The translations under genes and the position numbers were made by a program. 20,472 bases of DNA from assembly GCA_019693395.1 (NCBI GenBank), contig JAAMXP010001201.1, forward strand, positions 86,667-107,138. The letters run 5' to 3'. Position 1 is the stretch's first letter. Each line of letters opens with the position of its first letter. Below are positions 5,407 through 11,300 of the stretch, one piece after another. The notes below the pieces were generated by a model. It worked only from the letters and a program-made list of their open reading frames with translations, had not been told where the DNA came from and made no database searches. The DNA is from Ettlia oleoabundans. Taxonomy: Eukaryota > Chlorophyta > Chlorophyceae > Chlamydomonadales.

Positions 5407-7365
5407 ATGATATCCACGAAACCACCGGCCACCGTACAGCAACTTGAATGCAGACATCACAGCGCGATAAGTGCAGCCGCCACCCGGCCCCGCCGCCACC
5501 GCCCAATTGGTGCTGGCACCAGCAGGCACCCTCGTAGAGCTGTAGCGCAGGCGTCAGCTGTCACTGGGTCCTCCACTCCGCAGCAACAGGTGGGCAGGTG
5601 TGCACGCCATGTGGCATGTGGACTCGATTGTAGTTGACGCTCTGAAACCTTCCATACCAGGCTGCCGCAAGCACTGTGCTCTTCATGACCAGGGCCCCCT
5701 AGCACGCCTTGCCTCTCTCCCCCTTTACTGTCACAGAATGCGGCCTCGCTGGACGTGTCTGGTGCAGTGGTACAGCCTGCTTTCCGCCAGACGCCTTGGG
5801 CGGCCGAGGCTGCAGCAGCTGCCGCCGGCAGCAGCCGCTCTGCCGTCCGCATCGCCTTTGTCTCCGAGTCGGGCATCTGCCGCTGCGTGCTGGCGGCAGC
5901 GGCCTTTCAGGCTGCCCTGCAGTCGCGGGCGCCGAGCCTGGCTGCGATGGTGGAGGTGGAATGCCGCTCAACCAAGGATTACTGCGTGGGGGAGGGGCCA
6001 GACCCTCTAGTCACGGCAGTGGCATCCGAGCTTGGCTTGGCTGTGCCACAGGGCTATGCAGTGCAGCAGTTCAAGGAAAGCATAGACATCGTGGACTTTG
6101 ATGTGGTGCTTGTGATGGACAAGTTCACAGCTGCAGACGTGCTCCGTGAGGTGGGTGGGCGCATGAGCACTCAAAGAGAGATCCTGCGGGGTGGGTGTGC
6201 CAAGGTTGCAGCCTGCTGCCACAGCGGTGCTGGGACGCTGCTGCTGGTTGTTGTGCGGTCGTCGCCATCCCGCCTTGCTGCAAGGGCAGCTCAGCATGTG
6301 GTGCATGCTGATGCGCATAGCAGCAGATGAGCAGAAGCCCAGCGGGCCGATTTTGTTGGGCCCTGTGGTCCAGCTGCCACTTGTATGCACAATCTTCCCC
6401 TCTGCTAGTCCACACATCAATCACTTGGCACCACTCACACATGTCTCACATTTCCCTGCCCTGCACCACTGATGTTGTGCGCCCAACACCACCTGCTATG
6501 CAGGTCTCTGTGTTTGCAACTGTCGATCACTTCCCACCACTCACATCGCGCCATGCAGGTCTCTGTGTTTGACACCATCAAGACCTGGGGCAAGGCCAAC
6601 TACAGCAGCAAGGTACGGCGGCTAGGGGAGTTCAACCCCGCGGTGGCGGCGGCAGCGGCCAAAGATCAGGAAGCCGCCGACATTCAGGATGCGCTGTATG
6701 GTGAGGCTAGCAGGGCGTAGAAACTGTGGGTTATCTTGGAAAAACTTCAACTTGAGGAGAATAAAGGATAGAAGGTGTCTTGATGGTACACTGTGTGGCT
6801 CTGTTGTCATGGATGGTTGCAGTTTTGCATAACATGGCGTGTGCGAGTAATGCTGCCGTAACATGAGATGCACCGCTTCAGCGGAGTACACAGCAAACAC
6901 AAGCAAAGTTGCTCCTTCCAGTGTCTTTGTTTGACATGCAGATGGGCCATTGAGACTCATACCTGTGTGGCAATGGCATTGCTGCAAACAACGTTAACCT
7001 GTTTGGCAATGATGCTATCTGGTGCAGGCAACGTGGGAGGGAATGAAGAGCTGCAGGCGGTGCGGCAGGCAGCTGCAGTTATCCAGCAGAGCTGCGAGGG
7101 CCTTGTGGAGTTTCTGGTGGCAGTCGAAGCAAGACACCAGCAGGAGCAGGCACAACAGCAGTCAAAGCATGCACAGCAGGCGCAGCAGCAGCAGCATGAA
7201 TCGTCCAATCGGGCAAGCATGCAAACAGCGCCAGTTGAGCCGCCCCATGGCGGCGTGGGCAGCTCAGACGCAGCGCCTGCCAGGCTGGGAGACAGCTTGA
7301 CGGCGGCGGTTCGGAAGATGGGAGCCATGGACTGGTTGGTGCCGCCCATGCTGCAAGCCCGGTAG
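5407..7365 (+). CDS. Low-molecular-weight protein-tyrosine-phosphatase-like protein, nucleophile Cys replaced by Ser
   Basis: Four exons join in phase: 5407-5589, 5737-6150, 6559-6700 and 7028-7365 (TAG), giving 358 residues. A stop lies in frame just upstream (5311-5313), so ATG 5407 is the first possible start. Residues 1-60 are basic and Ser/Ala-rich, like an organelle, probably plastid, transit peptide. The LMW-PTP fold begins near residue 98 (VRIAFVSESGICRC). In active members this P-loop is C-x5-R-(S/T). Here position 104 is Ser (TCC, 5863-5865), Arg110 is kept, and a Cys follows the Arg. Later segments are VVLVMDKFTAADVLREV, VRRLGEF, and QDALYGGNVGG, where Asp243 could be the general acid of the usual DP motif. 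The C-terminus adds a Gln/Ala-rich low-complexity tail (about 295-315), ending near 358; LMW-PTPs are usually near 160 residues. A catalytically dead or altered enzyme is the simplest reading, but the change may be shared by a plant/algal paralogue family. Confidence 0.8.
6498..6571 (+). repeat. Direct repeat duplicating the splice acceptor of phosphatase exon 3
   Basis: A 19-base perfect repeat (6498-6516 and 6553-6571, offset 55) carries the CAG acceptor and the first 13 bases of exon 3. Only the downstream copy keeps the reading frame. Using the upstream copy adds 55 bases and brings a TGA into frame a few codons later. Confidence 0.8.
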
Positions 7366-7540: not shown

Positions 7541-7545
7541 TTACA
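7541..7545 (-). terminator. Poly(A) signal of isocitrate lyase
   Basis: TTACA on plus is TGTAA on minus. It is the first such motif downstream of both alternative terminal exons, and I found none between them. Both isoforms would therefore share this 3' end, with a 3' UTR of about 460 bases for the distal exon and about 850 for the proximal one unless it is spliced. Confidence 0.45.
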
Positions 7546-8005: not shown

Positions 8006-8124
8006 TCAAAACTGGGCGGTCTCAGTTGAGCCCTTGAGTGCGGTGGTGGAGGTCAGGCCCCCAGACACCACTTCGCTAATCGCATCGTAATAGCCGGTGC
8101 CCGCCTCGCGCTGATGGCGTATGC
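8006..8124 (-). CDS. ICL1: Second (distal) terminal coding exon of isocitrate lyase
   Basis: This is a full-length second copy of the last isocitrate lyase exon, 391 bases downstream of the first. It is 119 bases long like the first, enters in the same phase after a good pyrimidine-tract acceptor (TTTCTTTGCAG), and ends in its own TGA. Its translation starts IRHQREAGTGYYDAISEVV and ends in TETAQF. Against the proximal copy it has 6 amino-acid changes (V/I, A/G, F/Y, V/I, Q/L, S/T in 38 residues) but 16 synonymous codon changes, which suggests selection on the protein. It can replace the proximal exon by skipping it (intron of 658 bases from exon 9), giving a 417-residue isoform. Otherwise it lies in the 3' UTR of the proximal form. 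A relic of a tandem gene duplication is the alternative. Confidence 0.75.
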
Positions 8125-8396
8125 CTGCAAAGAAATAATGAAGAGGACAGGCCAAGGGCTGTGGCGGGCGGGCAGCAGAGTCGGGCGCGCGCCGAACTGT
8201 CCAGCCTAGACCAGACCATCTCAGCTTGCTGCGGTGTGCTGCGTTGCACAAGGTTGCTGCTTCTTGTGGGCAGGACAGCAGTGGGGCCTCTCACTGCGCT
8301 TGCTGCTGCCACAGTGGGAGTGGGCCTGCGTCGCCGCTGAGTAGGAATGCGTCTACAGCTGGGCTGCCTCACTGGGCCACTGATGAGGCACCCCAT

Positions 8397-11300
8397 CTAG
8401 AACTGCGCAGTCTCAGTGGACCCCTTGAGGGCGGTGGTGGAGCTCTGGCCGCCGCTCACAACCTCGCTGACGGCATCAAAGTACCCTGTGGCTGCCTCGC
8501 GTTGATGGCGCACGCCTGTTGGGTCAGGTGGGCAGCGGGCCACACACGACGGGGTACAAGGCGAGTAAAAGTGGGCGCTTAGGTGGGCGGAAGTGGGCGG
8601 CGCAGAATGGGATGAAGGTGGGCCAACAGGCAGTTGCAGGCAGAAGCCAGCAACCGGCACAGCACAGCAAAGCACAACACAGTGCAGCCCGTTCAGAATG
8701 CACAGCAGCGCCTTGTGATACCAGAAACACAAGCAAGCCGGCAGACTGCAGCCTTGGGGCCGGCAGCAGCAGCGACACCCACATGTGTATCCGTCCTTCT
8801 CCCGTGCAAACTCCTTCTGCTGCAGCTCGCTGTATGCGGCCATGCCTCGCTCGCGGTAACCGCTGGCTAGGTCAAACATGGAGTAGTTGAGGGCGTGGTA
8901 ACCTGTACGTGTGCACATTGATTGCAAGACGTGTGTGATGACGCGAATGATGGGAGGAATGGAAAGGGTGGCAAAGCTTTTAGGTGTGAAATAGGAAAGG
9001 GAGCATTAATCTTTGCAGAGCCGCCCAGCACAAACCAACTCTACCACTTGAACGATCCTTAGAGATCCAGAGCGAAGCCCACCTGCAAGTGTGACGTACT
9101 GGAACTTGCACCCGGCCCACCTATCCAGCCATCCGCCCAGCGCAGACGGCGCTTACCAACGCTCAACACACCAATGCCCCGACCACTAAAGCATACCCGC
9201 CTGACCAAAGGGCAGGCACCGCCCCAACTCCCTCACCACACCCGCCACAGCTTACCTGCCAGTGTGACGAACTGGAACTTGTACCCCATTTTGCCCAGCT
9301 CCTGCTGGAAGGTTGCAATCTGCTCCTTGCTCAAGTTCTTCTCCCAGTTGAAGGAGGGGGAGCAGTTGTAGGCCAGCATCTTGCCCGGGAACTTGGCGTG
9401 GATGCCCTCTGCGGCAGGCGGCGGGGTAGATGATAGGGGAGATTTCCTTGTGCGGCATGCATGCATGCGGCTGTGTGTGGGGTGGGTTGGGCTGGATTGG
9501 GTGTATAATGCGATGCTTGATAGCAGGATAGCGGCATGTAGCGGATCGAACGTTGGCTAGAACGCCTTCTGCCTGGCTGTCAGTTTGACCTCAAGGCAGT
9601 TACTGCTTGCTGCCCAGTGATTGAAGGTCGTGGTGAGGACGCAGGTTTCTACAGCAGGGCTTTGGGCTTGAATGCTGGCATGCATACTGGAAAACCGCAG
9701 CACACAGCAAATGAATTGTGTGCTGCCTATGGCTGTCTCCCCACCACAATCTGATCCACTGAACTTACCAGCAAACTCGCGGGCCTCCTCCATATCTGGC
9801 GTGGAGGTCTCACACCAGATCAGGTCGGCATAAGGGGCGTAGGCCAGGCCGCGTGCGATGGCCAGCTGCAGCAGGACGAATGGGTGGGGAGGCAGGCTTG
9901 CAGGAGGGATGGGTAGGGAGGAGGGTGGGCAGTTGGTGTGTTGGCAGGGGTGGGCATAGGCCAGGCCAGGCCGGTGCCACCCAGCAGAATGCAGAAGGGA
10001 ACAATGGAGGGCAGCCGGGCAGCAGGTGTGTGGGACGGCGGGGCGTGCCGGCGCAAGGCGGGTAGGAATGCAGGGACTAGCGGGCAGGCACACAGGCAGG
10101 CGGAGCATGGAGGTGGGGTGATGGGCAATAACCAAATCGCTTAAGCAAGACGCTCTTTGCTTAGTTGCTGGCAAGGAAGGGAAGGGAGGATGGTAGAACA
10201 ATTGAGGCAGCCATGCCACCGCAAGCAGGCAGTGCAGTGCATCAGCCGCGTGGCAGCCAAGCAGCAGCCGCTGCACCAGGCACCTTCACCCCGCAGAGAC
10301 GCACGCACCCCCCTGCAACACTGTCAGAAAGGCCAAACAAAAAAAACCTGGCGAGCCGCCGCACCTTTACGCCGCAGTTGACGTAGAAGAAGCCCTCTGG
10401 GGTGCGTTTGCCTGTGGTGAAGGGCTTGTCTGCCTCGTCCACGTCGCTGGTGAGCAGGTTGGCAGAGTGGGCGTCGGTGCGGGCGATGAGCACGGTGGGA
10501 ACGCCCGCCACGTCGGCAGCCAGCCGGGCTGCAGCACACCGCGGCGATGAGGCAGTCAGGATAAGGGGAAAGGTGCCGGCAGGCCGGGCTGCCAGCCAGG
10601 GGACAGGACTGTGCAATGGCCCGAGGCCATTGGCGCTCTTGCTAGCGCAATACATCCGGCAGCTGTGCTTGTTACAGGTATCATTCCGGGGCAGCGGTTG
10701 AGCAGCACACTAGCACGCCACTCAGCCCCCGCTCCTCTTTGCCCGCACTTGGGCTGTAGGTTATCAACCCTAACTCACTACTCACTATAGGTCCTGGGCT
10801 GGGGCATAGGACATAATAATGTGAACACCAACACCCAAACCAAAGTGTGCAGCGCGCAAGCGTACAAGCTCACCGGCAATCAGGTTGCGCACTGCCTGCT
10901 GCGTGGGCACCAGCACCTTTCCTCCCAGGTGGCCGCACTTCTTCTCAGAAGACAGCTGGTCCTCAAAGTGAACTGCGGTACAAAGCGGTACATATGACTG
11001 GTGGTAAGCACTAGCAACGCAACACGCTGCATAAATGAGGGATAGACAGGCACGTGTTGCTTGTGCTGAGCAGGCAGGCGGCAGGGGCTGCTGCATACGG
11101 GGGAAGAAAGTTGCAGAGGACTGCTCAAAGCAGGCTGGCAGCAGCAGGCGGGCAAAGCAACATACATATAGACGCGCAAAGCACTGCAGCACAAGCACGC
11201 AGTAGGCAGCTTCTGGTGTGCACCCTAAACTCATCTACTCACCGCCGGCGGCGCCTGCCTCAATCAGGTGCTTGGTGAGCTCATAGGCATTGAGGGGCCC

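Follow-up and report, generated by a model that had tools for sequence, protein, structure and literature searches.

A candidate pair of homologous alternative last exons in the single isocitrate lyase gene found in the green alga Ettlia oleoabundans

The window analyzed here, meaning the whole stretch of 20,472 nucleotides, is located within contig 398 of an Ettlia oleoabundans assembly (32.9 Mb, 1230 contigs). It contains a complete gene for isocitrate lyase (ICL) on the minus strand, in which all introns are GT...AG and either of two last exons leads to a protein of 417 residues. Exons 1 to 9, with edges set from the sequence and from homology, are common to both forms (12657-12460, 12122-11973, 11669-11588, 11314-11243, 10972-10874, 10528-10365, 9865-9769, 9408-9256, and 8902-8783, minus strand). 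Exon 9 (8783..8902) ends in CAT before the donor GTGGGTGTC, from which either last exon, denoted A and B, would be joined. Exon A (8397..8515, minus strand; own-genome match G000:C398:95066-95185) is preceded by an intron of 267 bases (intron 9, 8516..8782, minus strand) with the T-poor acceptor CCACCTGACCCAACAG. Exon B (8006..8124, minus strand; own-genome match G000:C398:94675-94794) is located beyond a further 272 bases (8125..8396, minus strand) that end in the T-rich acceptor ATTATTTCTTTGCAG. Both exons are 119 bases long, are entered in the same phase with one codon base contributed by exon 9, and hold 39 codons followed by their own stop, TAG in A and TGA in B. The acceptor AG is found in CCCAACAG before A and in TTTGCAG before B. 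These coordinates, the equal length, the common phase, the AG acceptors, and the separate stops agree with a preliminary description of this DNA and were all confirmed on the minus strand.

Several other features were observed in the window. Intron 8 contains a 38-base stretch (9076..9113, minus strand) that partly duplicates the exon 8 end together with its donor, matching the source at 9286-9249 in 33 of 38 bases. It spans 11 residues in translation and represents a second small local duplication within the ICL gene. A low molecular weight phosphotyrosine phosphatase domain (PF01451) was identified at 5689-6327 on the plus strand, opposite to ICL. Three mitochondrial carrier pieces (PF00153; 13825-15922, minus strand) apparently belong to one intron-containing gene upstream of ICL, and two elongation factor GTP-binding pieces (PF00009; 19040-20017, plus strand) at the right end of the window also apparently form one gene.

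The identity of the 417-residue protein as an ICL was supported by several searches. The KKCGH signature of the bacterial-type enzyme was found in exon 5, the protein matched PDB 6lrp with 667 bits in a comparison with solved structures, and PF00463 scored above its cut-off in four of the ICL exons when the genome was searched by family. The C-terminal lid segment SSTTAL.GSTE..QF occurs as such in A, and with TSTTAL in B. Among the matches listed (the best 120 of 8000), Parachlorella kessleri protein P0006 was 85% identical to the ICL over its full length, and the other best relatives listed were from Nannochloris (82%) and three assemblies (89-90%), giving an overall range of 82-90%. The introns and these best matches suggest a green alga close to Parachlorella and Nannochloris, which are trebouxiophytes. 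A Prototheca genome paper, in its passages on this enzyme, describes the ICL of those algae as acquired from bacteria (PMC11302234).

A second ICL copy was not found, as family and protein searches of the unmasked genome matched contig 398 only. Exon B used as a DNA query against the genome recovered B alone and missed even A, which makes this search insensitive to diverged copies. In 19 sampled loci of the genome, 46,353 of 190,000 bases were N, and a masked copy could escape these searches. Malate synthase (PF01274) gave three matches, two of them above the family cut-off (G000:C351:39713-40729, minus strand), which indicates that both enzymes of the glyoxylate shunt are encoded in this genome.

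We compared the two last exons and found that they differ at 29 of 119 bases. The recount over 39 codons gave six nonsynonymous and 16 synonymous differences plus the stop codon, the same amino acid and synonymous counts as in the preliminary description. The encoded tails share 33 of 39 residues (85%), with no indel and no internal stop. Estimates of dN and dS were 0.104 and 1.40 (NG86), 0.098 and 1.38 (LWL85), and 0.096 and 2.54 (maximum likelihood), which places dN/dS at about 0.07 over the 39 codons. The maximum-likelihood dS of 2.5 together with counting estimates of about 1.4 suggests that synonymous sites are near saturation, and recent gene conversion between A and B was ruled out by the dS of 1.4. 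The resemblance ends abruptly at the exon boundaries and the flanks are unlike: identity in 20-base blocks of fixed register was 0.65-0.85 in the six exon blocks and 0.20-0.40 in the twelve blocks outside. We also searched the window, together with 19 loci from this genome, for internal repeats (20 sequences, 164,119 unmasked bases, three loci being all N; pairs within 3 kb, E <= 1e-6). This search uncovered nine direct pairs of at least 60 bases, among which A/B was the sole ungapped pair; the other eight were gapped and located in three loci. Third-position G+C was 0.80 across exons 1 to 9, compared with 0.77 for A and 0.72 for B.

To place the duplication, we retrieved 337 proteins and compared the tails of the 323 that carry the HQRE motif; two of the match lists used covered the best 120 of 8000 and the best 120 of 4064 matches. 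The protein database is clustered at 90%, such that each relative is represented by one tail (that of the cluster representative) and isoforms would be hidden by the clustering. B differs from A at six residues and from any of the 323 tails at eight or more (best match 31 of 39). Four of the 323 tails lie closer to B than to A but share no more than 29 of 39 residues with it, and 29 are equidistant. Each B residue at the six differing sites occurs in other ICLs, some of them rarely (ungapped counts in the 323 tails: I 2, G 306, Y 7, I 27, L 27, T 4). A B-type tail was not found among those retrieved, as none carries more than three of B's six distinguishing residues. The pair had been described as conserved, and this was not established across species, given these counts and the grouping of B with A in the tree below.

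We constructed a tree from 20 tails using high-ranking or alga-like matches, some of which are perhaps not algal; the alignment had 39 columns, and most forks stayed unresolved. P0012, P0019, and P0026 were left out of the 23 tails. A and B were sisters (90/82), with a branch length of zero for A and 0.17 for B, and all six replacements fell on the branch of B, suggesting that B has been less constrained than A. The distance to A (5-13) was always smaller than that to B (9-16) in 19 of the 21 relatives chosen for the tree; P0012 and P0019 have indels that spoil an ungapped count and were left out of this comparison. The tree and the distances suggested that the duplication postdates the divergence from the relatives sampled and that B has evolved faster than A. 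The A/B duplication thus looks lineage-specific from the sequences compared, and early gene conversion would yield an identical picture in the tree.

A genomic reading frame from one relative (P0132) has an A-like exon after its last intron. In the same frame exon 8 is continuous with exon 9, and this absence of intron 8 indicates that intron 8 is not universal among the relatives. Pattern scans of the genome contig and viral contig sets found no algal ICL tail locus (the viral set returned 0 twice, and the genome contigs 0 and then 1). The sole genome contig match, in a Chloroflexi MAG, was rejected as a chance occurrence of GVRHQREA, as its translated frames contain no ICL tail. A protein search of the viral contigs gave identities of at most 71% among the best 80 of 323 loci.

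We then asked how B would have changed had it been free of constraint since the duplication, using 2000 simulated runs at each of four mutation loads. The simulated neutral copies accumulated on average 12 to 23 replacements across loads, and a stop-free copy with at most six replacements arose in 0.05% of runs at the lowest load and never at the three higher ones. These neutral simulations averaged only 6-7 synonymous codon changes, compared with the 16 observed, and the 20 neutral runs that reached 14-18 synonymous changes all had more than six replacements. With omega set to 0.03 for A and 0.3 for B, 90, 57, 27, and 9% of runs stayed within the observed limit, from the lowest to the highest load. 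It is therefore most improbable that B is a neutral, decaying duplicate devoid of function, a reading with which the confinement of all six replacements to B's branch, and the zero length of A's, would agree. The simulation strongly disfavors B as a long-dead relic, so both exons are very probably protein-coding, and judging from their sequences they are probably used as alternative last exons. The dN/dS of about 0.07 and the simulation indicate purifying selection on both coding exons, apparently weaker on B. The earlier proposal of an old divergence with the protein constrained in both copies was borne out, dN/dS being far from 1 and the simulation in agreement.

The same divergence bears on whether B could have been wrongly joined to this gene from another allele, a paralogue, or another organism. 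The assembly is a draft in 1230 contigs and its N-masked parts (see the sampled bases above) could hide a second copy. However, a dS of 1.4 far exceeds allelic divergence, and a second ICL copy was found nowhere else in the searchable genome, which makes an assembly artefact very unlikely.

The constraint test suggests that B was translated for most of its history, either in the ICL gene or, less likely, in a tandem copy since lost. In the latter case, B would be the last exon left over from an old tandem copy of ICL whose remainder was recently deleted, and would now be an unused and as yet undecayed part of the 3' untranslated or intergenic sequence. Such a history accounts for the old, constrained divergence, for the missing TGTAA between A and B, and for the failure to find a second gene. 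It requires, however, that a recent deletion left both acceptor and exon intact, and the ICL protein, searched against the translated window, uncovered no further remnant of a second copy: the best match outside the exons was the 11-residue duplicate of the exon 8 end, which is closer to its source, and all remaining matches had E >= 1.5. We consider this history unlikely.

To understand how B could be reached, we analyzed the splice sites. Between positions -20 and -4 (17 bases), the B acceptor contains 11 T and its pyrimidine share is 0.82, both the top values among the gene's ten acceptors; the A acceptor contains 2 T and its share is 0.65. The A acceptor is ordinary for this gene: a count of 2 T recurs in two further acceptors, and a smaller pyrimidine share (0.53 and 0.47) was found in two. 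As it is not an outlier, a regulated weak site is unsupported. The donor of exon 9, GTGGGT after CAT, departs from the GTGAG/GTAAG pattern of six of the nine donors. From its sequence, the strong far acceptor of B would be compatible with the passing over of A. RNA folding of the exon and intron stretch was ordinary (z 0.60), and a docking/selector RNA structure was ruled out as the mechanism on this basis.

The 3'-end signals leave room for another route to the same two forms. On the minus strand TGTAA is absent from the stretch between the two exons and first appears downstream of B at 7545 (7541..7545, minus strand), where it may be a shared polyadenylation signal. From this absence the preliminary description had concluded that the choice is made by exon skipping. 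The absence itself was confirmed, but the conclusion is weak, since TGTAA shows no excess in the genome sequence sampled (181 seen and 174 expected in 164,119 bases on both strands under a second-order model), and a choice made at the 3' end is possible. In that case early polyadenylation after A would yield form A, and later polyadenylation form B. This alternative overlaps with the reading in which two forms are made by splicing; it has the lack of TGTAA between A and B, with one at 7545, against it and the lack of enrichment, which means that the absence proves little, in its favor. We regard it as possible, though not the likelier course. The exons had also been called mutually exclusive. 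A choice between two last exons is likely, but strict exclusion is unneeded, because inclusion of A ends translation at its own stop and B may remain in the 3' untranslated region.

To see where the two forms would differ, we placed the six residues relative to the lid described for a bacterial ICL. In exon numbering, the replacements from A to B are V2I, A9G, F13Y, V16I, Q24L, and S25T, and the final 14 residues are identical despite six synonymous changes. The lid of Mycobacterium tuberculosis ICL comprises residues 411-428 (PNSSTTALTGSTEEGQFH), and the preceding helix 14 (399-409) contacts neighboring subunits, according to the structural description in PMC5430663. With the lid register set by aligning the STTAL block to this protein by eye, Q24 and S25 correspond to M. 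tuberculosis residues 412 and 413 at the start of the lid, and V2I, A9G, F13Y, and V16I precede it. F13 and V16 probably lie in the helix before the lid, as judged from motif order and a low-confidence helix (390-399) in the AlphaFold model of the relative P0001, where the protein residue is the exon residue plus 378. In this model pLDDT is below 50 for residues 383-417, and helices 379-385 and 390-399 are weakly supported. This placement suggests that the lid proper is common to both forms and that the differences lie mainly in the segment before it. The earlier suggestion that the forms differ only in the lid did not hold, as two changes fall at the lid start and four before it, and the accompanying idea that they serve different carbon states is speculative. 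Altered targeting via the C-terminus was ruled out, both forms ending in the same 14 residues (...AQF). Peptides spanning EAGTGYYDAISEVVSGG and its 17-residue counterpart would tell the two forms apart.

Taken together, we consider it probable that this is one ICL gene with two homologous alternative last exons, in which B is reached by passing over A; the splicing choice, the expression of B, and the effect on the enzyme are what we infer from the sequence. The final coding exon, or the 3' end of the gene, would have been duplicated in the lineage of this alga. When exon 9 is joined to A, translation would end there and the downstream sequence, possibly including B, would be 3' untranslated. 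Alternatively, A would be passed over and exon 9 joined to B, whose T-rich acceptor, unlike that of A, may allow the distal exon to compete with the proximal one. The predicted products are two catalytically competent ICLs of 417 residues with six mostly conservative differences. Most of these would lie in the C-terminal segment that precedes the lid and is predicted to pack on the neighboring subunit, with the lid proper in common, and the two forms could mix within one tetramer. A more speculative extension, to which we give a rather low probability, is that the single gene supplies two kinds of regulated subunit, distinct in the helix that packs against the neighboring subunit, and that these assemble into mixed tetramers. 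If true, mixed tetramers would tune the activity or stability of the glyoxylate shunt by splicing, with no second gene needed. The A/B pair would also be a natural swap experiment on what the C-terminal segment of ICL does to the enzyme. As a constrained homologous pair of last exons in an enzyme of central carbon metabolism, it would be a clean case of algal protein diversification by splicing, a process reported for few green algal genes (about 3% in Chlamydomonas from ESTs, as given in PMC4378016). A literature search, judged by titles and the openings of abstracts, found no description of homologous alternative last exons for ICL. In the relatives with a bacterial-type ICL, such as Parachlorella kessleri (P0006), a single tail is represented per relative and is nearer to A.

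The arrangement can be compared with three known systems. Mutually exclusive exons are of equal length and alike, are thought to be tandem-duplicated, and in many cases are linked to RNA structures that compete and to duplicated parts of introns, as summarized in PMC6071210. A and B share with such clusters the equal length, the similar sequence, and the presumed origin by tandem duplication. Mutually exclusive exon duplicates are mostly internal. A and B, in contrast, are terminal exons with dissimilar flanks and no unusual folding. Plant enzymes with alternative last exons are also known, from the examples described in PMC9266299. There, too, the C-terminus of a metabolic enzyme in the plant lineage is picked at the last exon; however, the ends of that enzyme come with or without a membrane segment and alter its location, and the ICL forms show no difference in targeting. 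The third system is KRAS, in which exons 4A and 4B are homologous alternative last exons of one gene, with tightly regulated use and, in the account of PMC9882654, a possible origin of 4A from a paralogue. A and B are likewise adjoining homologous last exons, entered in the same phase and with their own stops as in pairs of this type, and would swap the C-terminus of an otherwise identical protein. The KRAS forms differ in membrane targeting. The ICL tails differ from this case in being 85% identical (33/39) with an unchanged extreme C-terminus, and in that the use of B is deduced from sequence. Homologous alternative last exons are already known from such genes, and their occurrence in ICL is apparently new.
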